From Ferruginibacter sp. (lineage in GTDB: Bacteria; Bacteroidota; Bacteroidia; Chitinophagales; Chitinophagaceae), in contig JAHBTP010000003.1 of NCBI GenBank assembly GCA_019638485.1, positions 310,001 to 374,000 on the forward strand: a stretch of DNA of 64,000 nucleotides, in the 5' to 3' direction. Positions 1,771 through 31,270 of this stretch are shown piece after piece. The position numbers and the translations under genes are program-made. Every line of letters begins with the position of its first letter. Position 1 is the stretch's first letter. The notes under the pieces were generated by a model, which was not told the DNA's origin, searched no databases, and saw only the letters and a list, made by a program, of their open reading frames with translations.

Positions 1771-3024
1771 TCAGGCAGAATATTTTTTCAATATCACTGA
1801 TGCATTGTGTCCGCCAAATCCGAAGGTGTTACTCAATGCCGCATTAACTGTTTTATGTTGTGCTTTATTAAAAGTAAAATTTAATTTGGGGTCTAATTCG
1901 GGGTCGTCAACAAAATGATTGATGGTAGGAGGAATAATATTCTTGGTTACCGCTAAAATACAAGATAACGCTTCAAGCGCTCCTGCGGCGCCCAGACAAT
2001 GGCCTGTCATACTCTTTGTAGAAGAAATATTCAGGTTATAGGCATGTGCTCCAAAAATATTCATGATAGCCTTTACCTCTGCAACATCACCAAGTGGAGT
2101 AGATGTACCGTGTACGTTGATATAATCAATATCCTCCGGTTTCATTGCTGCATCTTTAAGTGCGGCAGCCATTACATTTTTTGCACCCAGTCCTTCCGGG
2201 TGTGGAGCAGTAATGTGATGTGCATCCGCAGTGGCTCCTCCACCGGCTACTTCACAATATATTTTTGCACCTCGTGCAAGGGCATGTTCAAGGCTCTCCA
2301 GAATAAGTACACCCGCACCCTCACCCATAACAAAGCCATCGCGCTCTTTATCAAACGGCCTACTGGCAGTTTTAGGGTCATCATTTCTTTCACTGAGGGC
2401 TTTCATAGCATTAAAACCACCAACTCCTGCAGCACTAATTACAGCCTCGCTACCACCGGTTACAATAATATCTGCTTTTCCAATTCGGATATTATCAAAT
2501 GCGTCAATAATAGCATTGGTGGAAGAAGCGCAAGCGCTTACTACTGCAAAGTTAGGACCTCTAAATCCGTAACGCATAGAGATGTGCCCTGCAGCAATAT
2601 CCAAAATCATTTTGGGAATAAAGAAAGGATTAAAGCGTGGTGTACCATCGCCCAAGGCAAAATTGGTAACTTCCTCTTGAAACGTTATCAGACCGCCAAT
2701 ACCACTTGCAAAAATCACACCTACTCGGTCGTGATCTACATTATCAGCAGTAATACCGGCATCCTTTACCGCTTCATCACTTGCTATTAGAGCAAACTGA
2801 GCATAACGGTCAAGCTTACGCGCTTCCTTTCTATCAAGGTAATTAGTAGGGTCAAAATCCTTAACCTCACAGGCAAACCTGGTTTTAAACTTTGAAATAT
2901 CGAACTGATGAACAAAGTCACAACCGCTTTCACCACTTTGCAAACCGTTCCAGAAATCCTGTACAGTTTTACCAATCGGTGTAATTGCCCCTATTCCAGT
3001 AACGACAACACGCTTCAAATCCAT
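1771..3024 (-). CDS. fabF: Beta-ketoacyl-ACP synthase II
   Basis: FabF condenses malonyl-ACP with acyl-ACP during fatty-acid elongation. The 417-residue length is normal for the family. The Cys-His-His triad is visible: C165 in VVSACASSTNA, H305 in NVHGTSTPLGD and H342 in MTGHCLGAAGA. The N-terminus RVVVTGIGAITPIG is typical and fixes the start. The gene lies 27 bases after acpP on the same strand, so enzyme and carrier protein are probably co-transcribed, with rnc following. A long open frame on the opposite strand (1999-2790) is a composition shadow. Confidence 0.97.
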   Translation of the reverse strand: MDLKRVVVTGIGAITPIGKTVQDFWNGLQSGESGCDFVHQFDISKFKTRFACEVKDFDPTNYLDRKEARKLDRYAQFALIASDEAVKDAGITADNVDHDRVGVIFASGIGGLITFQEEVTNFALGDGTPRFNPFFIPKMILDIAAGHISMRYGFRGPNFAVVSACASSTNAIIDAFDNIRIGKADIIVTGGSEAVISAAGVGGFNAMKALSERNDDPKTASRPFDKERDGFVMGEGAGVLILESLEHALARGAKIYCEVAGGGATADAHHITAPHPEGLGAKNVMAAALKDAAMKPEDIDYINVHGTSTPLGDVAEVKAIMNIFGAHAYNLNISSTKSMTGHCLGAAGALEALSCILAVTKNIIPPTINHFVDDPELDPKLNFTFNKAQHKTVNAALSNTFGFGGHNASVILKKYSA

Positions 3025-3051
3025 ATTTGCCTGTGAAAGATTAAAAAGATA

Positions 3052-3288
3052 TTACTTGGCGTTCTCTTCCAAATAAGAAACTGCCTGACCAACAGTTGTA
3101 ATGGTTTCAGCCTGTTCATCAGGAATAGAAATATTGAATTCTTTTTCGAATTCCATAATTAATTCAACTGTGTCCAAGCTATCGGCTCCTAAATCATTTG
3201 TAAATGAAGCTTCCGGTGTAACCTCAGCCTCATCCACTCCTAATTTGTCAACAATTATTTTTTTAACTCTTGTTGCAACGTCTGACAT
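3052..3288 (-). CDS. acpP: Acyl carrier protein
   Basis: ACP carries growing acyl chains on a 4'-phosphopantetheine arm. This 78-residue acidic protein has the attachment motif [14 protein letters not shown], with the modified serine at S37. Size, acidity and motif all fit the family. It is the first gene of the acpP-fabF-rnc group. A TAnnTTTG promoter element at 3315-3322 lies 26 bases before the ATG. Confidence 0.98.
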
Positions 3289-3314
3289 GATAAATAAATT
3301 TAGTTAATCAGGTG

Positions 3315-3322
3315 CAAAAATA
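3315..3322 (-). promoter_or_regulatory. Bacteroidota -7 promoter element before acpP
   Basis: On the minus strand this reads TATTTTTG, an exact match to TAnnTTTG, the known Bacteroidota -7 element. It lies 26 bases upstream of the acpP start. No convincing -33 TTTG was identified. Confidence 0.5.
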
Positions 3323-3524
3323 TACTTTTTGAAACAATTCCAAACTTTTCCATAAATATGCTAAAACTCATTAGATATCAGTAAGTTACACTATTACCTC
3401 AAGGAGATTCTAAATAGTTGCCTTTTTCATTTATTATAAAACCTAAACATTTCACCGGATAGATGAGCTATTTATAGTAAATTGATGATGAAAGCATTTT
3501 ATCCTTCAGCCTACTTTAAAATAT

Positions 3525-3956
3525 ATGGGGTTAAGATTGATAGACCATAATTCACCAGAGTACCGGCAGATGGTAAACCTGCGGTATAATATATTGCGTC
3601 AGCCCCTTGGGCTTACTTTCTCTGATGAAGACTTAGCCAATGAAAAAGATGATATTCTTTTAGCTTCATTTGAAGATGATGATATGTTGGCTTGTTGTAT
3701 TCTTTCACAAACACCCGAACACGCTACCCTTCGGTTAAGACAAATGGCAGTTCCTAAAAACATGCAGGGAAAAGGTATTGGAGCCGCTTTGTTAGTGTTT
3801 GCTGAAAATATTGCCCGAGATAAGGGATACAAGCGAATTACCATGAACGCACGAAATACAGCCATCGGATTTTATGAAAGAGCAGGATATAAAATTTATG
3901 GGAATGATTTTATAGAAGTGGGCTTACCCCATCATACTATGGAGAAGTATATTTAA
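3525..3956 (+). CDS. GNAT-family N-acetyltransferase
   Basis: A 143-residue single-domain GNAT acetyltransferase of unknown substrate. The acetyl-CoA pyrophosphate-binding segment is seen as VPKNMQGKGIGAALL (Q-x-x-G-x-G), preceded by the beta strand LRLRQMAV. The C-terminal NTAIGFYERAGYKIYG is the usual family signature. The N-terminal part (YNILRQPLGL) resembles ElaA-like acetyltransferases. The 3' end overlaps the convergent gene at 3937-4422 by 20 bases. The preceding 236 bases contain no recognisable promoter beyond a weak TACTTTAA. Confidence 0.88.
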   Translation: MGLRLIDHNSPEYRQMVNLRYNILRQPLGLTFSDEDLANEKDDILLASFEDDDMLACCILSQTPEHATLRLRQMAVPKNMQGKGIGAALLVFAENIARDKGYKRITMNARNTAIGFYERAGYKIYGNDFIEVGLPHHTMEKYI

Positions 3957-4422
3957 CAAACTGCCTTAATGTTTTTCTGAACTCATGCGTCACATCTTCT
4001 TCAAAGGCCTCTTTGGGTACAATAAAAAAAGAGCGGCTGTTAAAATAAAGATGAAAAAAATGTGGGCTTTCCATCCATGACTCAAATTCTTTCCAATACC
4101 ATGCACGCTCACCCATTCTATTTTCAAGTGTGAAAGCAGCATCAGAAAAGTGAACCCTAAACTCTTCTTTAAACACCTTTGTTTTTCTATAAATTATTCG
4201 GGGAAGCACAAACCAAAACATCAGCATTAAAAAAAACCACAATGCTGAAGCCGTTAGAAAAGCTAATGGAGATATCTTTTTAAAAAAGAAAATTACTGCA
4301 GAAAGCACCGCAAACACATTAACCACAATAAGTAAAACTTTTATTTCTTTACGGCTAATAAAATGATATCGTAATGCCTGAACTACTTTTTCCTTGTTAA
4401 AGGTAAACCAGTTAGAATCCAT
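3937..4422 (-). CDS. YcxB-like membrane protein
   Basis: A 161-residue protein with two closely spaced hydrophobic segments (about residues 28-48 and 53-75), then a soluble C-terminal half with aromatic-rich strands (WYWKEFESWMES, HLYFNSRSFFIVPKEAF). This layout matches the YcxB-like protein family, whose function is unknown. The family call rests on overall pattern, not a catalytic motif. It lies upstream of the GNAT gene in convergent orientation and may be part of a minus-strand group with the MazG-like and dtd genes, 26 bases after the former. Confidence 0.65.
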   Translation of the reverse strand: MDSNWFTFNKEKVVQALRYHFISRKEIKVLLIVVNVFAVLSAVIFFFKKISPLAFLTASALWFFLMLMFWFVLPRIIYRKTKVFKEEFRVHFSDAAFTLENRMGERAWYWKEFESWMESPHFFHLYFNSRSFFIVPKEAFEEDVTHEFRKTLRQFVKYTSP

Positions 4423-4448
4423 TTTTTATTTCAATTTTTGTTGAACGA

Positions 4449-4784
4449 TTATTTCAATTTATTATTTTGATGATGCCGGTTTGCATCTCTTTGTGTTTTC
4501 TTTTCCATATTCTTTTTAAAGGCCACTGAAAGATCTACACCGGTTTGGTTAGCCAGGCAAATCAATACCCATAATATATCTGCCATTTCATCGGCAAGTT
4601 GTTTACTCTCCTCACCTGCTTTAAAAGACTGTTCTCCGTATTTCCGTACCATAATGCGTGACAGCTCACCTACCTCTTCAACAAGAATACCTAAATTGGT
4701 GAGTTCGTTAAAATATCGAACGCCATATTTCTTTATCCAATTATCAACTTGTTGCTGCGCTTCATTAAAGGAAATATTTTCCAT
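4449..4784 (-). CDS. MazG-like nucleotide pyrophosphohydrolase
   Basis: A 111-residue all-alpha NTP pyrophosphohydrolase of the MazG type, expected to hydrolyse (possibly non-canonical) nucleoside triphosphates to monophosphates. The Mg-binding pattern is visible: EEVGELSRIM supplies the first E-x-x-E pair and LADEMADILWVL the second E-x-x-D pair. The single short domain resembles house-cleaning MazG-like enzymes, not the two-domain E. coli MazG. Its ATG overlaps the dtd stop codon by one base, so translation is probably coupled. Both genes remove wrong molecules (bad nucleotides, D-aminoacyl-tRNAs). Confidence 0.88.
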   Translation of the reverse strand: MENISFNEAQQQVDNWIKKYGVRYFNELTNLGILVEEVGELSRIMVRKYGEQSFKAGEESKQLADEMADILWVLICLANQTGVDLSVAFKKNMEKKTQRDANRHHQNNKLK

Positions 4785-5236
4785 TATTCTCTGTTTTTTG
4801 TATCTATCAAAATGGTAACCGGTCCATCATTTTCCAAACTCACTAACATATCTGCACCAAAAACACCTGCCGGTATTTCTTGCTGCAACAACGAAGTAAG
4901 TATATGTAAAAATTTTTTATACACAGGTATTGATATATCCGGCTTTGCAGCACGTGAATAACCCGGACGATTCCCCTTTTTTGTTGATGCAAATAACGTG
5001 AATTGTGAAACGACCAATATAGAACCGTTTACCTCTTTCACAGACAGATTAGGCACCCCATGCTCATCATCAAAAATTCGCATAGCTACAATTTTTGATG
5101 CAAGCCATTGCACATCCTCATCATCATCACCATTTTCAATGCCTACCAACACCAGAAGCCCCTGATTAATCTTACCGGTAAGTATGCCGTTAGCCATTAC
5201 CGATGCATTCTTTACCCGTTGAATAACCGCTCGCAT
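4784..5236 (-). CDS. dtd: D-aminoacyl-tRNA deacylase
   Basis: DTD removes D-amino acids wrongly attached to tRNA. The family N-terminus MRAVIQRVKNASV starts at the ATG at 5236; an in-frame TTG three codons earlier is less likely. The active-site motifs are both present: SQFTLFAST and the Gly-Pro motif NDGPVTILID. At 150 residues the length is normal. A TACTTTTG promoter element lies 7 bases upstream, and the MazG-like gene overlaps the stop. Confidence 0.96.
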   Translation of the reverse strand: MRAVIQRVKNASVMANGILTGKINQGLLVLVGIENGDDDEDVQWLASKIVAMRIFDDEHGVPNLSVKEVNGSILVVSQFTLFASTKKGNRPGYSRAAKPDISIPVYKKFLHILTSLLQQEIPAGVFGADMLVSLENDGPVTILIDTKNRE

Positions 5237-5242
5237 AGAATA

Positions 5243-5250
5243 CAAAAGTA
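5243..5250 (-). promoter_or_regulatory. Bacteroidota -7 promoter element before dtd
   Basis: Minus strand TACTTTTG, an exact TAnnTTTG match. It lies so close to the ATG at 5236 that the transcript would have almost no leader, a pattern repeated at other genes here. Confidence 0.45.
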
Positions 5251-5539
5251 AGCAATGCTATGTCAGGTTTTTCTCCAAATAAAAATCTCAATAATGCATT
5301 ATCTTTTTGCGATATCATCAATTAAGTTAGTATTATCGTTGTAATTATTTCAAAAATGAAATGCATTATAACTATTGAAATATTTTTGAAAAAACTATCC
5401 GGACATAGCAAATTATCCATTCATTATTAGAAGATAAAAACATCAAATAGAATAATCATCCCTTTTAATAATAAAAAATTTTTTCTTTCCACATTTAGTG
5501 AAAAACGCATGTAACACAAACCCTGTGCACCCTTCCCAA

Positions 5540-5561
5540 TTATTCACATTTTTTATCCACA
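5540..5561 (+). promoter_or_regulatory. Two DnaA-box-like 9-mers upstream of nrdJ
   Basis: TTATTCACA (5540-5548) and TTATCCACA (5553-5561) stand in the same orientation, 13 bases start to start. The second is the perfect DnaA box and the first differs by one base. They lie about 40 bases upstream of the presumed nrdJ promoter, within a 420-base gene-free interval whose left part is very AT-rich. DnaA control of ribonucleotide reductase is known in E. coli (nrdAB), which makes a regulatory role reasonable. The remainder of 5251-5539 shows nothing else I can name. Confidence 0.45.
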
Positions 5562-5603
5562 GTTTGTTGATAGAATAGCCTATGAAACTCCATTTTCAAG
5601 GGA

Positions 5604-5630
5604 TACTTTCGTTGTCCTCCAGCAGGACAA
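5604..5630 (+). promoter_or_regulatory. Probable nrdJ promoter with palindrome at the start site
   Basis: TACTTTCG (5604-5611) is a one-mismatch version of TAnnTTTG. The same TTCG variant occurs before pyrD and the E2 gene. Directly after it, TTGTCCT (5612-5618) and AGGACAA (5624-5630) form a perfect 7-base inverted repeat with a 5-base spacer, where the transcript should begin. It could be an operator or a 5'-end RNA hairpin. It does not match the NrdR box or the cobalamin-riboswitch B12 box as I know them. Confidence 0.4.
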
Positions 5631-5656
5631 ATTACTAACCACAACAGAACCTTAAT

Positions 5657-8600
5657 ATGCCAACAAAAAAGCAGCGCAATGGCGCCTTACAGATTAACCG
5701 CCAGTTTACAAAAGAGCATGTAAGCCCGTTTGATTTGTTTGAATACGATTACCGCACATCGGTAATTAAGAACCCCACCGGCGAAGCCGTTTTCCAAATG
5801 GATAATGTAGAGGTTCCAAAATCATGGAGCCAAATTGCAACTGATATTCTTGCACAAAAATATTTTCGTAAAGCGGGAGTTCCTCAACCCAATGGTTCCA
5901 CAGGACGTGAAACTTCTATTAAACAAGTTGCTCATCGCATGGCTCATTGTTGGCGCATGTGGGGTGAACGATATAATTATTTTGCATCTAAAAAAGATGC
6001 CCAAACTTTTTATGATGAGTTAGTATATTCAATTCTTAACCAGGCATGCGTGCCTAACAGTCCACAGTGGTTTAATACCGGTTTGCATGAAGTGTACGGC
6101 ATAACCGGTAAACCACAGGGGCATTATTATGTAGATCCTGTTGATAATAAACTAAAAAAATCTACTTCAGCGTATGAACGCCCTCAGCCTCACGCTTGTT
6201 TTATTTTAAGTGTAGATGATGACTTAGTGAATGAAGGAGGAATAATGGATTTATGGTTGCGTGAAGCTCGGATTTTTAAATATGGTAGTGGTGTAGGAAC
6301 TAACTTCAGCAGCATTAGAGGTGAAGGTGAGAAATTAAGTGGAGGTGGAACATCCAGCGGATTGATGAGTTTCCTTAAAATTGGAGACCGTGCTGCAGGA
6401 GCTATAAAAAGCGGAGGTACCACACGTAGAGCTGCAAAAATGGTATGCCTTGATTTAGACCATCCGGAAATTGTTGAATTTGTAAATTGGAAAGTTAAAG
6501 AAGAAGACAAAGTTGCGGCATTAATAGCTGCCGGTTATTCTAACGACTATGAAGGTGAAGCTTACCGTACGGTAAGCGGACAAAACAGCAATAACTCAGT
6601 TCGTATTCCAAACAGTTTTTTTAAAGCACTTGATGAGGATGGTGATTGGGAACTTAAAGCAAGAAGCGATGGCCATACCATGAAAAAGGTAAAAGCCCGT
6701 GAGCTTTGGAACCAAATCAACTATGCAGCCTGGAGATGCGCTGACCCCGGCACTCAATACGACACCACTATCAATGAATGGCATACGTGTCCGGAAGGTG
6801 GGCCAATAAGAGCTTCCAACCCCTGCAGTGAATATATGTTTTTAGACAATACTGCCTGCAATTTGGCCAGCGTTAACCTACGTAGATTTTATAATGAAGA
6901 ACAAAACACCTTCGACGTTGAAGGTTTTGAATACACTTGCAGGCTGTGGACCATTGTGCTGGAAATTTCAGTACTGATGGCACAGTTCCCATCAAAAGAA
7001 GTGGCACAACTCAGTTTCGACTATCGTACGCTGGGTCTTGGTTTTGCCAACCTTGGCAGTATGCTTATGGTAAGCGGCATTGCTTACGATAGTGAGGAAG
7101 CTCGGGGAATTGCCGGAGCCATTACTGCTATTATGACCGGAACAGCATACAAGACTTCCGCTGAAATGGCCTCTTTTTTAGGAACATTTAAGGAGTATGA
7201 AAAAAACAAGCCACACATGATGCGCGTAATGCGTAATCATCGCGCTGCTGCCTATGATGCCATGGACGCCTATGATGGATTAGAAATTAAACCAAAAGGC
7301 ATTCAAGCAAAATATTGTCCTGATTATTTACTTAAAGCCGCCACAAAGGCCTGGGATGATGCAGTACAAATGGGAGAAAAATATGGATACCGAAATGCAC
7401 AAACTACAGTAATTGCACCTACCGGTACAATTGGGTTGATTATGGATTGTGACACCACAGGAGTAGAACCGGATTTTGCCTTGGTGAAATTTAAAAAACT
7501 AAGCGGTGGCGGATATTTCAAAATTATCAATCAAAGTGTGCCACAAGCCCTGCGTAATCTAAAATACCCAGAAAATCAAATTACAGAGATTGTTAACTAT
7601 GCAAAAGGGCACGCCTCATTAAAGGGCGCACCATATATTAATGAAGAGTCATTACTATCAAAAGGCTTCAATAAAACGGATATTAAAACCTTAAATGCTG
7701 CCATGGGCAGTGCGTTTGCCATTGGTTTTGTATTTAATGTATTTACACTTGGTGAGGCCTGTTTGGAACGTATAGGATTTAAACCCGAAGAGTATAACGA
7801 TTTTGGATGGAATATGCTGGAAGCGCTGGGCTTTACCGATGAGCAAATTGAAGCAGCAAATGAATACATCTGTGGTACGATGACCATTGAAGGCGCTCCT
7901 CACCTAAAAAAGGAACACCTTCCGGTTTTTGATTGTGCAAATAAATGCGGACAAAACGGCAAGCGATTCATTCATGCACACGGGCATATTCGCATGATGG
8001 CTGCTGCACAACCTTTCTTAAGTGGTGCAATTAGTAAAACTATTAACCTTCCTAACGAAGCCATCGAAGAAGAAATAGCAGATGCCTATCGGCTGAGCTG
8101 GGAACTCGGATTAAAAGCGTGTGCTCTTTATCGTGATGGTTCAAAACTTAGCCAGCCGCTTAGCAATAAAGTAGATAAAAAGAAAAATGATAAAAGTAAT
8201 CAAGATACAAAAACCACAAGTGAAGAACACACTGCGGCGCTACTTGATATGGCAAGCTTATCTATAGAAGAATTATTAGACGAGGTTAATAAGCGCGTAC
8301 AAAGCAGTGCAGACACTTCTTTAAAACGCCAACTGGCCAGAATAGTTGAAAGACGTACCTTACCTGCAAAGCGCAAAGGCTATACTCAAAAGGCAAAAAT
8401 CAGTGACCAAACACTATTCCTTCGTACCGGTGATTATTCTGATGGTACATTGGGAGAAATATTCATTGACATGTCTAAGGAAGGTGCTACTATGCGCAGT
8501 ATGCTAAACTGTTTTGCCATAGCAGTTTCTATAGGATTGCAATATGGTGTTCCGCTTGAAGAGTTCGTAGAAAAGTTTGTGTTTACCAGATTCGAACCAT

Positions 8601-24099: not shown

Positions 24100-24120
24100 C
24101 TTTTATAAATACTTTAATTT

Positions 24121-24149
24121 AAAGGGCTGCTTTTTAAGTAGCCCTTTTT
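24121..24149 (+). terminator. Rho-independent terminator after ileS/DksA-like genes
   Basis: AAAGGGCTGC (24121-24130) pairs with GTAGCCCTTT (24138-24147) with one G-T wobble. The loop is seven bases and the T run closes the signal, 21 bases after the stop codon. Confidence 0.88.
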
Positions 24150-24234
24150 GTTTTTATTAAAATAAACCATGAAATATCAACATCAAGAAATGGCTTAATA
24201 ATGAATTGGGTTTTAAAATAAATTAAAAATTTAA

Positions 24235-24242
24235 TACCTTTA
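24235..24242 (+). promoter_or_regulatory. Weak -7-like element before lipoprotein gene
   Basis: TACCTTTA differs from TAnnTTTG at the last base and lies 24 bases before the ATG at 24267, after the terminator at 24121. Confidence 0.3.
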
Positions 24243-24266
24243 GTTTACATCCTAAACTTCCCTAAA

Positions 24267-25376
24267 ATGAGAAAACTATCCATCCTTATTATTTCAACAT
24301 TTCTAATAGCCGGCTGCAACAATGCCCAAACAAACAAAGACAAAAACAATAGCAGTTCTGCAAATGTTAATAGTACATCCCAAAATAAAGATTCAAAATC
24401 AGAAAAAGAATCTGAACAGGTCCGCTGGGAACAATTAGTAGAACATAAACTTACTCAAAATGACGGACAGGTTTTTATGACAATGCCTGTGCCAAAAAAT
24501 TGGCGTTTCGATAGTAAACAGTATCTAATTTATGGAAATTCAAATTTTAGAATCACTGCTCTTGACAATAAGTTTTTTGTGGTAAGAGATGCTTTCCCTA
24601 CACCTCCTAATTTTCAAATACGCTCATTTCCATCTATCGAACAATTGACAAAAGAAGATATTGCTCCAGCAGTAGCAAAAAAAGGATATACAATTGTGAA
24701 ATATGAATCTTACCCAAAAGCCGCAGAACCAAATAATTGGTACGATGCTCAACTATACAAAACTTATCGAAGCAATAATGTCTCCCAAACGATTGGTTAC
24801 GACTTAAAAGATAATAACGGTAATCCTGCTTTTCTCCTTTTAAATCTCGACCACAAACGTAGTGATATGAGTGAAAATTGGATGTACAGATTGGAATTGA
24901 TAGAATCTGATCCCGATGCGCTTGAAAAGTCAAAAAAACAATATCTCTTTGCTCTTGAAAATATTCATTTCAATCCCAAACCGATAATGGATTATAATCA
25001 AAGGGAAATGGCTGCTATCGGGCAAAGTTGGGCAACTTTTAATGAACGAATGAAACGAAATCAAGCTGCCTTTGAAGCCAGTCAGCGTGCTCATGTAAAT
25101 TCAGTAAATGCGGTAAATGATGCGATGATGTCAAGTTATAAAGCAAGAAGTGCAACTGATGACAAAATTCAGGAACGGGAGCTGGATTATATTTACGAAC
25201 GAGAAAATGTAGCTGACGATGGTGGGAATAAATACAAGGTTGATATGGGATACAATCGTTACTGGATGAATAACCAGGGAGAATATATGGCAACTGACAA
25301 ATACAATTATAATCCCAATGAAGATCCGATTATGAATAATAAAAACTGGAAAGAGTTGCAAAAGATTGATCAGTGA
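24267..25376 (+). CDS. Hypothetical lipoprotein
   Basis: A 369-residue protein beginning MRKLSILIISTFLIAGC, a clear lipoprotein signal with the lipid-accepting cysteine at 17. A Ser/Asn/Lys linker (about 18-50) comes next, then a soluble region. FMTMPVPKNWRF and later ALENIHFNPKP suggest a PsbP/DUF1795-like fold, but I cannot confirm it. The C-terminal third is rich in Gln, Asn, Tyr and Met (FNERMKRNQAAFEASQRAH, then YNRYWMNNQGEYMATDKYNY). It stands alone between a terminator and the gene-free repeat region. Function unknown. Confidence 0.72.
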   Translation: MRKLSILIISTFLIAGCNNAQTNKDKNNSSSANVNSTSQNKDSKSEKESEQVRWEQLVEHKLTQNDGQVFMTMPVPKNWRFDSKQYLIYGNSNFRITALDNKFFVVRDAFPTPPNFQIRSFPSIEQLTKEDIAPAVAKKGYTIVKYESYPKAAEPNNWYDAQLYKTYRSNNVSQTIGYDLKDNNGNPAFLLLNLDHKRSDMSENWMYRLELIESDPDALEKSKKQYLFALENIHFNPKPIMDYNQREMAAIGQSWATFNERMKRNQAAFEASQRAHVNSVNAVNDAMMSSYKARSATDDKIQERELDYIYERENVADDGGNKYKVDMGYNRYWMNNQGEYMATDKYNYNPNEDPIMNNKNWKELQKIDQ

Positions 25377-25556
25377 GAGAAGTATTATAAACAGGGAAAG
25401 CCTTCAGGTCATTTTGAAATTACATTCATCCGCACAATCCGCAAGTGAACACCCACTGAACAGTTAGTTATTAGTGGCTTGTGCCTAATTGAGCGTGAAA
25501 AAAGGTTTTTTAAGGTGTGATTAAAAACAACTTCGTGTGTCCGTAACAGTTATGCT

Positions 25557-25840
25557 CCATAAATCCCGAATTTGGGGTATTGTTTTGTGTTTGAAATACT
25601 CCGATCTTTGAAATGGGGTGGGGGGCGTAGCCCCCGCCCGAAAGGGTTACCTGCCCCGTAAAGCACCTTGATGAGGTATTGTTTTGTGTTCTTAAAAATC
25701 CAAACTTTGCACCGGGGTGGGAAACGCAGTTTCCCCCTTTTTTGAAATATACCCCATAAAGTACCAAGCCGAGGCATTGTTCCGTATTTTAAAAATTGCG
25801 AACTTTGAATTGGGGTCAGCGGGACGCTGGCCCCGGGCAG
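25557..25840. repeat. Array of three tandem ~85-base hairpin repeats
   Basis: Three imperfect units run 25557-25639, 25654-25737 and 25752-25840. Each has a (C)CATAAA/GTAAAG start, a GGTATTGTTTTGTG-like core and AACTTTG-like bases. Each ends in a GC-rich hairpin: GGGGGC..GCCCCC, GGGAAAC..GTTTCCC and GGGGTCAGC..GCTGGCCCC. The hairpin sequences differ while both arms change together, which indicates selection for pairing. Open frames across the region are by-products. The 25377-25556 stretch before it holds nothing I can name. Confidence 0.85.
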
Positions 25841-26010
25841 GAATAGGGCTCATTTTGCTAATCTTTTACTCCTTTCTTAAGTATGCTCCGAAGTAGATAA
25901 GGGGAGATGCTATTAATTATGAATTACGGGTTTTCAGTTTTTAGTTGACCTGAAAGGATTATGATTCATTTTGATTAAATACATCTTCGCATATCCGTCA
26001 CCGTTATACT

Positions 26011-26195
26011 CCATAAATACCGATTATAGGGTATTGTTTGCTGTTCTTAAAAATCTGAACTTTGCACCGGGGTGGGAAACGCAGTTTCCCCCTTTTTTGA
26101 AATATACCCTATAAAGTACCAAGCCGAGGCATTGTTCCGTATTTTAAAAATTGCGAACTTTGAATTGGGGTCAGCGGGATGCTGGCCTCGGGCAG
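26011..26195. repeat. Second array of two hairpin repeats
   Basis: Units at 26011-26092 and 26107-26195. From 26044 onward it matches 25690-25840 almost base for base, with about five differences in 151 bases. Its first unit starts like unit 1 of the first array (CCATAAAT) and continues like unit 2. It therefore looks like a copy that lost one repeat by recombination between units. Confidence 0.82.
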
Positions 26196-26625
26196 AGTTA
26201 CAGGATTTATTGAAGCATCAGGGGGTACCACATACCCCCGTACGAGCAGGATGTAGATTTGTTATCTGCTCTATCTGAGAATCATTTATACCACTAAATA
26301 CTTCCCGCAGATTTCGCTGATTTTTGCTTTTACGAATATTGGAATCTTACGGATTCCTATTTTCAAATTCACTCGTTTGAATTCAACTGTCCCGAAAATG
26401 GTTTTCTAAAGTTGGAGCAGAAAGCATATTTTATCTATCTATTTCGTTGGCCAAACCCTTTAGTTTTATCAAAAAGAAATTCTCTTTTGCTTTTTAAAAC
26501 TAATTTTTATCACACCAACAAACAGAAAGTATTTATACGTAGCAGTATGGTAAGTTGTGGATAAAGAGAAATGAAAACAAAAGAGAATTACAATTACCTC
26601 CCCAAATGAAAATGGAGTTAAAAAA
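26196..26625. other. Gene-free stretch with further small inverted repeats
   Basis: No gene is supported. Inverted repeats occur at 26221-26239 (GGGGGTA..TACCCCC), 26341-26357 (GGAATC..GATTCC) and 26362-26381 (TTCAAA..TTTGAA). The phrase CCGCAGATTTCGCTGATTTT near 26303 resembles dispersed repeats I associate with Bacteroidota intergenic DNA. A perfect DnaA-box 9-mer lies at 26556-26564 on the minus strand. Together with the adjacent arrays this reads as repeat-derived spacer. Confidence 0.5.
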
Positions 26626-26862
26626 CTAAAATTCAAGTCCAATCACTCTTGTCCCTCCTTCTCGAGTGCAATCCGCAGGCATACTTTCCGGTGCTACACA
26701 AACCGAATATAAGATTCCACCGTGTGGCCCATTAACATCTACACAATATCCATTTAGGTTTTCCCGGTCTTTTGGACAATTACCTGCCTTTGAAGACATA
26801 CCAAAATAAGAAAACGCTGATGCAAATAAAAGAATCGCAGAACTTAATACAATCTTTTTCAT
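26626..26862 (-). CDS. Small secreted four-cysteine peptide
   Basis: A 78-residue protein starting MKKIVLSSAILLFASAFSYF, a signal-peptide-like N-terminus. The rest is a short polar region with four cysteines, C29, C40, C55 and C65, which could form two disulfides outside the cytoplasm. The ATG at 26862 is chosen because it begins the basic-hydrophobic leader; an upstream in-frame start adds only an unlikely extension. It is the last gene of a minus-strand series (propeller lipoprotein, CxxC lipoprotein, receptor-like barrel), 118 bases after the barrel gene. Small leader peptides of the NVEALA type occur beside propeller lipoproteins in Bacteroidota, but no NVEALA motif is visible. Function unknown. 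Confidence 0.7.
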   Translation of the reverse strand: MKKIVLSSAILLFASAFSYFGMSSKAGNCPKDRENLNGYCVDVNGPHGGILYSVCVAPESMPADCTREGGTRVIGLEF

Positions 26863-26980
26863 AACAGTAGTTTTTAAATTTCCTAATTGCATAAAGTTGA
26901 GATTCTAAATAATAAACACCTATTACAATTTGTTATAAATTATTGCAATCTAAAATATTTGTATACACATAAATCACACG

Positions 26981-29290
26981 TTACTTCTCATTAGAAATAA
27001 AAGGAGTTTTCTTTTCCGCGGTTTTCATCATTTTGATATTTGAAAAACTATAAAACAACTTAACAGAAAATAGCCGGTAGGGTGTTTTTGAATACATATA
27101 ACTCTCCCTTTTTTCAAATACGGTATAAGATTTGGCATTTCTGTTTTTTAATAAAAAATTATCTGCTATCAACCACATAGCCACCTTATTTTTTACAATG
27201 CTTTTATACCAGGATAAAGAGTATCTTGATGATGAGGCCGAGTAACCCTGCGATGTAAGCGGATTGGTAAACATTCTAAAAGAAAAATTCAAACTACCAA
27301 CCCGTTTATTTATTGGATAATAGACAGTATTAACAGAATAAAAATCTAAACCGGAATAATCTGTATTGAACTCACTGTTCTTATTATACCAATACATTAT
27401 TTCGTTAGAAGAGCTTATCACGATTTTCTTCCAAAGCGTAGTTTTCAAATCGAGGTTATATTCCACTCCTGTGGAATAGGCTCCTTCTTTAACTTGTGAT
27501 ACAAGCATACCTCTTGCAGAATCATAAACAGTAAAAGACTCAAAGCCATCAAATTTATAACTCAAACCAATACTATTAGTAATAACAGATTTTCTGCTGC
27601 TTGTAAGTGAAATTTTCCAAGAAACAGACTTACTCGGGTTTAATGCCGGATTGCCGATTTTCTCCTCTATCGGATTACTATAAGTACTAATTGGCGATTG
27701 TACAAAATCGGAAGGTGTATAAACAGAAAATTTCAAATTCGTAATAACCGATAAGCTATGCTTTAATAATTTCTTATACTTCACTTCAAAACGCGGTAAA
27801 ATAAAACTCTTTGTACCTATACCTATGTTTTTTCTAGTATAATACTCTGATTCAAAATTAAGTATCAGGGCTCTTTTTGCGTCCAGTTTCCTCATATACC
27901 AAATGTATGGTTTAAAAGAAAAAACAGACAATCCTGCGGAGTCGGGTTGGTAAAATAACAATTCTAAATTTGCACCGGTTAAGCTGTCAACTGAATACTT
28001 ATAATAATTCTGACCAATCTTCTTACCGTACACCTGCACACCACCATCTATTTTGTACCTTCCATCTTTACCCTCCTTAAAAACATCAAACTCAATAATC
28101 CAAACAGGTGCCAGCTTTCTTGACATATCTGCAATACTATCCAAGGCTTTATTACCAAATTGTGAATAGCTATTATTAATATCCGTTCTTGACCACTCTA
28201 ATGCGGTTGAAACGGACACATCTCCAATTTTTGTTTTTCGATTTATAAAACTCAGCGTTAATTTTGCAAGTGTATTGTTATTATTAATCTTTTGATCTTG
28301 ATTAATACTTAGAGATTCCAAATTTTTGTAACCGTAGTTTGCCTTCCAGTTGCTAATACTCCCGGTTAGGGCAAGATCTTTCGTTGAGTCTATTCTTAAG
28401 CCATAACCGAAATTACCGGCCAACTTGGTATATTTACATTTCGACTCAATATGGCGCATATCCATCAGTACCCCGTCATCATAAGTTTTAAAACCCTTTC
28501 CCACTTTATAATTATCCATAGCGTTACTTACTCCAAATGAATAATCAGATTTTTTATGCAGTACAGTCAGATTAAGTGAATTATTTAAATTTTTACGTTC
28601 ATCAAATTGGGTAGAAACAACCAATGATTTACCATAAATATTAGCACCATTAGTAAAAATATTTATCACCACTGAATAACCGCGGTTAGCAATACTCGCA
28701 GGCACCTCTGTTATCAGCTCTACCTTATAAATATCCGATGTCTTTATATTCTTCAACAATGCACTCCAGGTATTACCAATTCCTTTTCGCTCCTTTCCGT
28801 CAATTAAAAAAAGAATCTTTCCTTCATTTTTATACGTAATATTATCTCCTGAAAGAAATATAAATGGCAATCTTTGGAGAGCATAAAGTAGCGGTTGATT
28901 TCTGAAAATACTATCCCGTTGAGGATTATACTCAAACCCCGATAGCGTTTCCTTTACGAGCCGCCTTGTACCGGTAACAGTAACTTCTTTAAGTTCGGGT
29001 GTTGAAATTGAAATTGAAAGAGTTGTATCACTAAAAACAACAAGCCGCCTTATAGCAGGAAAAAGATACTCCTTAGCATAAAAATCAATATCCATCGGCA
29101 CTCCGGCTTTAACAAGTACGCGCTTATTCAAATCCGTGTGAATAATCCTGTTCGCTTGTGTTATGTGTACCTCAATATTTTTTACAATCTTACTGTCTAT
29201 TGTAAAAGAAATGTTACAGCTATCTTGTTGGGCAAAAACAATATCAGGAAACCAAAATATTATTAAAAAAAAGGAGAGGTATCTATGCAT
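26981..29290 (-). CDS. TonB-receptor-like outer-membrane beta-barrel protein
   Basis: A 769-residue outer-membrane protein. After a signal peptide ending FPDIVFAQ comes a small Ig/carboxypeptidase-like domain (to about 95). ELKEVTVTGTR follows, resembling the TonB-box/plug start, then a plug-like segment (QPLLYALQRLPFIFLSGDN, FLIDGKERKGIG, DIYKVELITEVPASIANRG). A long barrel of alternating aromatic strands fills the rest. It resembles the outer-membrane beta-barrel family grouped with TonB receptors in Bacteroidota. The substrate is unknown. It follows the CxxC lipoprotein gene by 9 bases, so it is in the same operon. Confidence 0.8.
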   Translation of the reverse strand: MHRYLSFFLIIFWFPDIVFAQQDSCNISFTIDSKIVKNIEVHITQANRIIHTDLNKRVLVKAGVPMDIDFYAKEYLFPAIRRLVVFSDTTLSISISTPELKEVTVTGTRRLVKETLSGFEYNPQRDSIFRNQPLLYALQRLPFIFLSGDNITYKNEGKILFLIDGKERKGIGNTWSALLKNIKTSDIYKVELITEVPASIANRGYSVVINIFTNGANIYGKSLVVSTQFDERKNLNNSLNLTVLHKKSDYSFGVSNAMDNYKVGKGFKTYDDGVLMDMRHIESKCKYTKLAGNFGYGLRIDSTKDLALTGSISNWKANYGYKNLESLSINQDQKINNNNTLAKLTLSFINRKTKIGDVSVSTALEWSRTDINNSYSQFGNKALDSIADMSRKLAPVWIIEFDVFKEGKDGRYKIDGGVQVYGKKIGQNYYKYSVDSLTGANLELLFYQPDSAGLSVFSFKPYIWYMRKLDAKRALILNFESEYYTRKNIGIGTKSFILPRFEVKYKKLLKHSLSVITNLKFSVYTPSDFVQSPISTYSNPIEEKIGNPALNPSKSVSWKISLTSSRKSVITNSIGLSYKFDGFESFTVYDSARGMLVSQVKEGAYSTGVEYNLDLKTTLWKKIVISSSNEIMYWYNKNSEFNTDYSGLDFYSVNTVYYPINKRVGSLNFSFRMFTNPLTSQGYSASSSRYSLSWYKSIVKNKVAMWLIADNFLLKNRNAKSYTVFEKRESYMYSKTPYRLFSVKLFYSFSNIKMMKTAEKKTPFISNEK

Positions 29291-29299
29291 TGGTATTCA

Positions 29300-29701
29300 T
29301 TAAGGTTCGAAATATTTTTTAAAATGAATTGCACCTCCTGCTTTTTCATACAATACAGGATAAATTTCCTTATCCTTTTCCTGATATTCAAAAAGGTTTA
29401 ACGAATCTATTAATATATTTTTTGCTAACAAAATGGATCTAAATCGTTGCTTAAACAATTTTTTTGATCCTATTCTTGTAAATACAAAAAAATACCTCTT
29501 TTCATTGGCATGGATAAAAGCCTCCTCCTCCACGCTGGTAATACAACCCGAACAACCTGACCCCGGAATAATAAAAATTAATGTACTATCCTCTAAATTC
29601 TTAGGGACAATTAGGTTAATGAAATTTTCTCCCTTTTCAATATTACAACCTTGGCATATCAGCAACAAAAGAGTACAAATAAAAATATATATTATCCTCA
29701 T
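29300..29701 (-). CDS. Lipoprotein with thioredoxin-like CxxC motif
   Basis: A 133-residue protein starting MRIIYIFICTLLLLICQGC, a lipoprotein signal with the lipid-accepting cysteine at 19. The strand LIFIIPGSGCSGCI (C50-x-x-C53) resembles the start of a thioredoxin-like fold with its redox pair, followed by EEEAFIHANEKRYFFVFT. The total is short for a full thioredoxin domain. The start is set at 29701 because the longer frame upstream has no signal peptide and lies within the preceding gene; even so, it overlaps that gene by 59 bases. A role in disulfide handling of the nearby four-cysteine peptide is conceivable but inferred. Confidence 0.68.
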   Translation of the reverse strand: MRIIYIFICTLLLLICQGCNIEKGENFINLIVPKNLEDSTLIFIIPGSGCSGCITSVEEEAFIHANEKRYFFVFTRIGSKKLFKQRFRSILLAKNILIDSLNLFEYQEKDKEIYPVLYEKAGGAIHFKKYFEP

Positions 29702-30821
29702 CCTTAATTTTATTATAATTTTGAAAATAAATACCTTTGGAAGTAACAAAATAAATTTTGGTATTAATCTCTGCCCCCAACTCCCCATAACCAATTAATT
29801 GGTAATTCATATTATATGCTAGTAAATATTTTTTTTGAATACCCAACCTGCCCTCATTAAGATATTGATTATCCGTTGGCTGAGCCAAAACTCGATAGAA
29901 ACATTTTTTATAAGGATTATAAATTATTTCACGAAAGGAAAATTGACTAAAATAATGCATTGCAATATCATTTCTCCTATTTAAACTATAATTAGAATTC
30001 ATTTCAGTAAAAGACTTACACTTGAAGGTTACTCCGGACTTCAAATTAATATATGATTCCTTTCCTGAAACAATATTAAATCTCGCTATTTTTTCAGAAG
30101 CCGGGAAAGAAACAAGAATAGTCGTGTCATCTACAACAGTTGAATAAGGAAACCTGAAATAAACACCACCCCAATTTTTACCATTGTATTCTGAAGGGAA
30201 GCTAACATAGTTTATAATTGTATCCTCATTAATCCACGCAACAGATTTTCTATCATTATTGCCCCCCTCTCTTTCACCAAGGCTAAATCCTACAATAAAA
30301 ATCCCTCCATGAAACAAAAGAGGGGTAATAGATGAAAATGTATTAGGTATTAGAACACCACCCATTCTCTCATTACCCATTCTCCAAGGGATTTTCGCTT
30401 TAATGACTAAACTTGTATCTATTAAATAGATATTATCCGGCTGTGAGCCAATTAAAAAAATACTATCGGTATTCTGAATCCAACCACCTTCAATTCCTAT
30501 TAAATCCCTTTCACCTTTATAATTTTTTGCTTTGGAGAGGTTTAAAACATTTGATCGCTTTTTTCTAAAATCAACAAGAGAAATGGTGTTAATCTCATTA
30601 TTATAAATCATTAAAATAGAATCTTTAAAGGATACGTTCCTCGGTGTATTTATTGTGAGCGAATCAATCGGAATAACCAAGCTGTCGGCCAATATAATTG
30701 TTTTATCCCCAACAATTACACTCCTCTCCTTTTTTAAACAGCTAAAACAAAAAATCGAAAAAAATACTAGAAGAAACGATTTTCTTATTTTTCTCCTAAT
30801 TAAAAAGTGTTTCCCTTTCAC
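29643..30821 (-). CDS. DUF4221-type six-bladed beta-propeller lipoprotein
   Basis: A 392-residue protein with a basic N-terminus (RRKIRKSFLLVFFSIFCFSC) and a lipid-accepting cysteine at 28. The body has repeating strand pairs expected of a propeller: INTPRNVSFKDSILMIYNNEINTISLVD, DSIFLIGSQPDNIYLID, TTILVSFPASEKIARFNI and KKYLLAYNMNYQLIGYGE. Pattern and size fit DUF4221-like proteins of Bacteroidota, which are surface or periplasmic and of unknown function. It starts with GTG; no ATG lies near. It is the first gene of the minus-strand operon, divergent from the XRE regulator 86 bases away. Confidence 0.7.
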   Translation of the reverse strand: MKGKHFLIRRKIRKSFLLVFFSIFCFSCLKKERSVIVGDKTIILADSLVIPIDSLTINTPRNVSFKDSILMIYNNEINTISLVDFRKKRSNVLNLSKAKNYKGERDLIGIEGGWIQNTDSIFLIGSQPDNIYLIDTSLVIKAKIPWRMGNERMGGVLIPNTFSSITPLLFHGGIFIVGFSLGEREGGNNDRKSVAWINEDTIINYVSFPSEYNGKNWGGVYFRFPYSTVVDDTTILVSFPASEKIARFNIVSGKESYINLKSGVTFKCKSFTEMNSNYSLNRRNDIAMHYFSQFSFREIIYNPYKKCFYRVLAQPTDNQYLNEGRLGIQKKYLLAYNMNYQLIGYGELGAEINTKIYFVTSKGIYFQNYNKIKDEDNIYFYLYSFVADMPRL

Positions 30822-30860
30822 TTCCTAAAGTTATATTCACAAGCAGCTATTCAAAAATTC

Positions 30861-30896
30861 ATATTTGAAATAAATATATTATTTTTGGAAATAAAA
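30861..30896. promoter_or_regulatory. Direct repeats and -7 element between propeller gene and XRE regulator
   Basis: ATATTTGAAATAAA (30861-30874) and TATTTTTGGAAATAAAA (30880-30896) are imperfect direct repeats about 19 bases apart. The second contains TATTTTTG (30880-30887), an exact TAnnTTTG match 20 bases before the XRE ATG. Repeats over the promoter suggest a binding site, perhaps for the regulator itself. Confidence 0.4.
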
Positions 30897-30907
30897 TTAT
30901 ACCCTCC

Positions 30908-31246
30908 ATGGACTTCGGTACAAAACTTAAGAAAATTCGGAAAGAACATAATTTGAATCAAGACCAAATGGCTGAGATTTTATTTACTACACAGGGAAAT
31001 TATAGTCAATTTGAAAATAACAACAGGATACCCTCATTAGATATTATAAAACGTTTAGTTGAAAAATTTAATCTTGACGCGAATTGGCTTTTATCATCCA
31101 CACAAGATCAAACAAATAACTTTATGGATAACAGTTCTTGCCAAATTGCCTTTTTAAAAACAGAGAAATTTTATTTGGGAAGCGATCAAATTGAAGACCT
31201 GAATAAAAAACTAGATTTATTAATCGAATTACTGTCTAAAAGTTAA
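30908..31246 (+). CDS. XRE-family helix-turn-helix regulator
   Basis: A 112-residue protein. Residues 4-65 form a Cro/C1-type HTH: FGTKLKKIRKEHNLNQDQMA, then GNYSQFENNNRIPSLDIIKRLVEKF and the LDANWLLS end. The C-terminal helix (DQIEDLNKKLDLLIELL) probably dimerises. It is divergent from the propeller/CxxC/receptor/peptide operon and is the obvious candidate regulator of it. That link is by position only. Confidence 0.87.
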   Translation: MDFGTKLKKIRKEHNLNQDQMAEILFTTQGNYSQFENNNRIPSLDIIKRLVEKFNLDANWLLSSTQDQTNNFMDNSSCQIAFLKTEKFYLGSDQIEDLNKKLDLLIELLSKS

Positions 31247-31270
31247 TAGAACTTCCGCCTCTCAACAAAA

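Follow-up and report, generated by a model that had tools for sequence, protein, structure and literature searches.

A recurrent Bacteroidota gene set of a four-cysteine peptide, a DUF4221 propeller and a GCxGC lipoprotein

The window analysed here, a stretch of 64,000 nucleotides of DNA from Ferruginibacter sp., contains an island inserted between a dksA-like gene and an ABC transporter gene. Within it, four minus-strand ORFs and a divergent XRE ORF were all found intact, as the first-pass annotation of this DNA had described. The features are as follows, in window coordinates.

24100..31270 (no strand assigned): island, inserted between dksA-like and ABC transporter genes, absent in 3/6 congeners
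26626..26862 (−): secreted four-cysteine peptide, core gene 3, with a Sec-like signal and a mature part of ~50 aa; peptide-profile match at E 2.9e-5
26981..29290 (−): outer-membrane barrel OMP_b-brl_3 (PF14905, E 1.8e-9), between the lipoprotein and the peptide; local accessory gene
29300..29701 (−): GCxGC lipoprotein, core gene 2, thioredoxin-like according to its model; its profile relatives always lie beside DUF4221 in named genomes
29543..29554 (−): CxxC active-site-like motif C50-S-G-C53 of the GCxGC lipoprotein
29643..30821 (−): DUF4221 beta-propeller lipoprotein, core gene 1, with lipobox FCFS↓C (PF13970, E 3e-14)
30908..31246 (+): divergent XRE-family regulator (HTH_19, E 4e-16)

The minus-strand genes are transcribed in the order DUF4221 propeller, GCxGC lipoprotein, barrel and four-cysteine peptide, and propeller, lipoprotein and peptide were each found as a single copy in searches of the source genome. 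In the three congeners without the island, the dksA-like and ABC transporter genes adjoin with a gap of 59–116 bp, so that the earlier description of the locus as flanked by housekeeping genes was right. Among the remaining three, one carries two different genes between the dksA-like and ABC transporter genes and two have a rearranged order.

The window propeller is a member of DUF4221 by both sequence and fold. It scored 53.8 bits against Pfam PF13970 (gathering score 23.4), its profile matched the solved DUF4221 structure 3s9j (BVU_1028) at E 1.4e-34, and its predicted model (pLDDT 76) adopted a beta-propeller fold whose best match was again 3s9j (Foldseek E 7.7e-16, TM 0.67/0.72). BVU_1028 has a solved structure and no assigned function, and no partner peptide for it was found in the literature searched. 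Far below 3s9j, the model also matched the Bacteroides B12-binding lipoproteins 8bmz and 8okv. Export of lipoproteins to the surface is signalled by an acidic cluster after the lipid-bearing Cys (PMC5080379). The window propeller, with CLKKERS at this position, has one acidic residue in five, and at least two acidic residues were found in 12 of 81 DUF4221 relatives. Since these propellers mostly lack the surface export signal, their sequences suggest a location on the periplasmic side of the outer membrane.

Proteins of the GCxGC lipoprotein family are ~135–150 aa long. In the window, the start of this gene is likely 29701 rather than 29794; the lipoprotein signal begins at 29701, and with this start the gene shares 59 nt with the end of DUF4221. 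Pfam and NCBIfam, including their thioredoxin models, gave no useful match. In 19 aligned relatives, C50, C53 and Y114-P115 were invariant, and the model (pLDDT 87.5) showed the strand-CxxC-helix order of thioredoxins with a conserved proline, the CxxC following the first strand and the proline preceding a late strand, as is characteristic of thioredoxin-like proteins. Its best structural matches were nearly all thioredoxins or thiol-disulfide oxidoreductases, at modest scores (Foldseek weak at E 6e-3, TM 0.43; VIA Z ~6.5, 6.6 at best, which is within the range for unrelated models). The model points to a thioredoxin-like fold and a putative oxidoreductase. The fold suggested by the model and the CxxC motif are also those of TlpA/ResA-type oxidoreductases, whereas the GCxGC lipoprotein is shorter, carries GCxGC and matches none of the thioredoxin models.

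For the peptide, the most likely start is 26862 (MKKIVLSS...). Its signal, MKKIVLSSAILLFASAFSYFGMSSKAG, is of the Sec type and does not have the features of a double-glycine leader, and the peptide has neither an NVEALA motif, as had been stated before, nor a Pfam NVEALA match at E<=1. A single-sequence search of 299 genomes gave no convincing match, and relatives of the peptide were detectable by profile only. Against a family profile built without it, the window peptide ranked first among the 476 window ORFs (E 2.9e-5 including the signal); its mature part alone still ranked first at E 0.23, a value that counts against the reading favoured below. Four Cys and one Gly are invariant in the alignment of 16 peptides, which follow the approximate pattern C-x(7-11)-C-x(8-17)-C-x(7-12)-C; in nearly all of them the second Cys is part of G-x-C. 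More generally, 35 of the 40 distinct peptides near DUF4221 had an even number of Cys (p=7e-7), with exactly four in 23; in two of the five odd-numbered peptides the extra Cys lies inside the signal. In close pairs among ten Chitinophaga cassettes, the mature peptide was the most conserved part (dN/dS 0–0.08, compared with 0.17–0.33 for the signal, 0.09–0.15 for the propeller and 0.10–0.20 for the lipoprotein), which shows that the mature part is a coding sequence under constraint.

The set of four-cysteine peptide, DUF4221 propeller and GCxGC lipoprotein recurs across Bacteroidota and forms the conserved core of the locus. An order-wide search with the propeller gave a match in a genome of the same family, Chitinophagaceae (G169), on a contig of Chitinophaga tropicalis in which the genes for peptide, propeller and CxxC lipoprotein are contiguous. 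A Pfam-anchored DUF4221 survey then covered 395 Bacteroidota genomes, 16 of which had the family, and ~35 loci regions were inspected. As an independent test, named genomes were scanned with the lipoprotein only, by using four closer alignment rows as query in place of the seven-row alignment, which was too divergent for a contig scan. Among the 22 loci obtained, from Chitinophaga, Flavihumibacter, Roseivirga, Algoriphagus, Thermoflexibacter, Fodinibius and Nitritalea, DUF4221 lay directly upstream in 22/22 and a four-Cys peptide preceded DUF4221 in 21/22, the exception being Nitritalea with a broken propeller frame; four of these loci (L110, L126, L127 and L131) repeat regions already surveyed. 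The 14 Chitinophagaceae loci, which are related by descent, occur in at least five different gene neighbourhoods, showing that the three genes travel together. In nearly all loci the propeller and lipoprotein genes overlap, mostly by 26 nt, as they also do in the window. Thermoflexibacter ruber has five tandem peptide-propeller-lipoprotein units with distinct peptides, four of which have a CxxC motif in the lipoprotein. The outcome that the first-pass annotation had named as refuting its proposal, a lack of co-occurrence in other genomes, is contradicted by the 21 loci and by these five units.

We also compared the frequency of secreted peptides near DUF4221 and near control genes farther away in the same loci, applying one rule to all genes (secreted, at least 3 Cys, within 500 bp, same strand). 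Such a peptide was found for 25/59 DUF4221 genes and 7/220 controls (odds ratio 22, p=1.3e-13), counts that are not fully independent, since in some cases a single peptide is shared between tandem propellers and a small number of the ORF calls are uncertain. Several observations count against the envelope-cassette reading set out below. Many DUF4221 genes stand without a neighbouring CxxC lipoprotein or peptide, as with the tandem propellers of L069 and L071, and in the window the peptide gene comes last, behind the barrel, not first. Two further profile matches, L106 (a WCAPC thioredoxin, no DUF4221 match) and L109, were rejected as belonging to no cassette.

The comparison with NVEALA peptides made at the outset proved apt, as NVEALA peptides adjoin DUF4221 and related propellers in L074 and L076. 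In NVEALA loci (Pfam NVEALA; DUF4221, DUF5128, TolB_like), as in the cassette, a short exported Cys peptide adjoins a propeller lipoprotein; unlike in those loci, the signal of the window peptide is of the plain Sec type without an NVEALA leader, and its partner is a small GCxGC thioredoxin-like lipoprotein without a Pfam family. Because NVEALA peptides fill the same slot in some Bacteroidota genomes, the cassette can be regarded as a non-NVEALA variant. In L107 the arrangement is the same with a DUF5128 protein as the propeller, and in L080 DUF4221 lies beside Cys peptides with double-glycine leaders and C39-peptidase ORFs; taken with the NVEALA loci, these cases show that export route and propeller family vary while the arrangement is constant. 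Bacteroidetocins and double-glycine-leader peptides are also small exported Bacteroidota peptides (PMC6671954, PMC8546649), whereas the window peptide has a Sec-type signal, a propeller partner and no double-glycine leader. Our literature search found no paper describing the cassette and none naming NVEALA; for DUF4221 and DUF5128 it gave nothing useful, with one paper barely touching these propeller families.

Neither the barrel nor the XRE regulator belongs to the recurrent set. The window barrel matched PF14905 alone, without a Plug match at E<=1, and a search of 148 other genomes of the family gave no relative at E<=1e-15. Its N-terminal part resembles that of the barrel beside the Chitinophaga sp. 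CF118 cassette (28%, E 8.5e-4). The barrel of L111, matched N-terminally at 28%, itself matches Plug weakly. Barrel genes lie near few cassettes (L111, L126, L080 and L035) and beside most there is none, so the barrel was ruled out as a core part. As it is not a constant partner, the earlier proposal that the peptide is exported or taken up through it found no support. For the XRE, the other cassette loci yielded one weak match (L080, 32% over 63 aa), which likewise left both its place in the core and the proposed repressor control unsupported.

We consider it slightly less than an even chance (roughly 0.45) that this locus is a single instance of a conserved envelope cassette, made up of three genes and serving a disulfide-bonded peptide, in which the partners have the following roles. 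The peptide would be exported by Sec and its signal removed, and its four cysteines, judging from their pattern, would form two disulfides in the periplasm. The GCxGC lipoprotein may be dedicated, as a thiol-disulfide oxidoreductase, to forming or correcting these disulfides, an activity suggested by its modelled fold and aligned motif. The DUF4221 propeller, paired with the peptide by genomics, would bind or carry it as its cognate partner at the outer membrane, probably on the periplasmic side. The folded peptide would then act as a conserved ligand, whether as a kin-type signal or inside the envelope. In the source genome, a barrel gene has joined the transcription unit and might, speculatively, act as a local exit or entry port. 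The folding of a disulfide-bonded peptide had been anticipated by the first-pass annotation, and the even Cys counts and the modelled thioredoxin-like fold of the lipoprotein lend it inferential support.

A peptide that kills or inhibits relatives, with the propeller as immunity protein and the thioredoxin-like lipoprotein maturing the peptide, would make the cassette a bacteriocin system, which we regard as unlikely but the strongest of the alternatives. The tandem units of Thermoflexibacter ruber with their divergent peptides and the double-glycine leaders beside C39-peptidase ORFs in L080, which resemble exported bacteriocins, keep this reading alive; the peptide-less tandem propellers of L069 and L071 resemble orphan immunity genes, and the window cassette lies in an accessory island. 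However, the mature peptide is nearly invariant across Chitinophaga species, Sec-type cassettes have no dedicated exporter beside them, and propellers of 390 aa would be unusual as immunity proteins. Because of the low dN/dS within Chitinophaga, a conserved ligand appears to fit slightly better than a fast-evolving weapon. The same constraint on the mature peptide, together with the strict pairing and the rarity of a surface export signal in the propellers, would suit a peptide that acts in cis, as a small subunit with a structural or regulatory part in a stable envelope complex formed with its propeller, and has no extracellular role. We find this rather improbable, as the peptides vary greatly between loci while the propellers keep one fold, and paralogous tandem units suggest specificity, not housekeeping.

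BtuG, a propeller surface lipoprotein, binds a ligand for and works with a TonB-dependent transporter (PMC10404256), and in this B12 uptake system (BtuG/BtuB; PMC10404256, PMC6143338) an outer-membrane propeller lipoprotein stands with a barrel, as in the window. By analogy, the propeller could capture a surface ligand for import by the barrel, with the peptide as an accessory or metallophore-like ligand, and the matches to 8bmz and 8okv and the few barrel-associated cassettes would agree with this. Such uptake is nevertheless quite improbable: most cassettes have no barrel, the window barrel lacks both a close relative in the family sample and a Plug match, the surface export signal is mostly missing, and a peptide and a thioredoxin-like lipoprotein take the place of the B12 proteins. 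BtuG is a lead for ligand binding by the propeller and gives no evidence of membership. That unrelated genes for peptide, propeller and lipoprotein became neighbours by chance might be argued from the divergence of each protein and the accessory nature of the island, but is refuted by the co-occurrence data (21/22 loci, five tandem units, overlapping genes and the enrichment near DUF4221) and has a negligible probability.

Compared with these alternatives, the reading as an envelope cassette for a disulfide-bonded peptide points to a system, apparently not described before, in which such a peptide is made and held, a function we infer. Nearly as likely as not, it represents a phylum-wide undescribed class in which a disulfide-bonded peptide is combined with a propeller receptor and a thiol oxidoreductase of its own, the export route (Sec, NVEALA or double-glycine) varying and the propeller being constant. 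DUF4221, a family known from a solved structure but without an assigned function, thereby gains a partner and a testable role, and two families missing from Pfam and NCBIfam, the four-cysteine peptide and the GCxGC lipoprotein, are defined. Should the propeller prove to bind the peptide, a role as peptide receptor or immunity protein could extend to many of the orphan propeller lipoproteins in Bacteroidota, and peptide communication or antagonism in this phylum would become accessible to mapping.

Some minor features of the locus were also examined. PADLOC matched only the generic HTH of the XRE, and an anti-phage defence reading was rejected; one scan of viral contigs found no propeller relative. 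The Bacteroidota-type promoter pattern had no match in the vicinity of the locus and was no more frequent than expected by chance. The XRE promoter had earlier been described as overlain by repeats, but none of at least 11 nt was found in 30780–30960. The repeat-rich spacer described beside the locus does contain real repeats (185 nt, 91%), but they are not locus-specific, since their family is dispersed with 44 matches in the source genome.

In Thermoflexibacter ruber (locus L125), units composed of peptide, propeller and lipoprotein genes were repeated five times in tandem, in which the CxxC motif of the lipoprotein was present in four of the five, and two glycosyltransferase-like genes (~455 aa) were interspersed among these units. 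At L080 (G480:C20), a DUF4221 locus of another genome, Cys peptides bearing a double-glycine leader and short C39-peptidase-like ORFs alternated with DUF4221 propellers. At 2175-6002 of another such locus, L035, a Cys-rich ORF of 93 aa, a GLPGLI-like protein (PF09697) and a candidate barrel of 875 aa were observed upstream of the DUF4221 genes. DUF4221 genes were also arranged in tandem with no peptide nearby at L069 (7557-12197) and L071 (7987-10225), each array having two to four genes.

In the window, the inserted island bearing the cassette also encodes a 369-aa lipoprotein of no clear family (24267-25376). The spacer beside the cassette (25518-26195) contains repeats of 185 nt at 91% identity and of 105 nt at 77%. 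These repeats belong to a dispersed family, which gave 44 matches across six of the seven contigs of this genome, including a series of partial copies spaced ~403 bp apart (C1:238497-239756).
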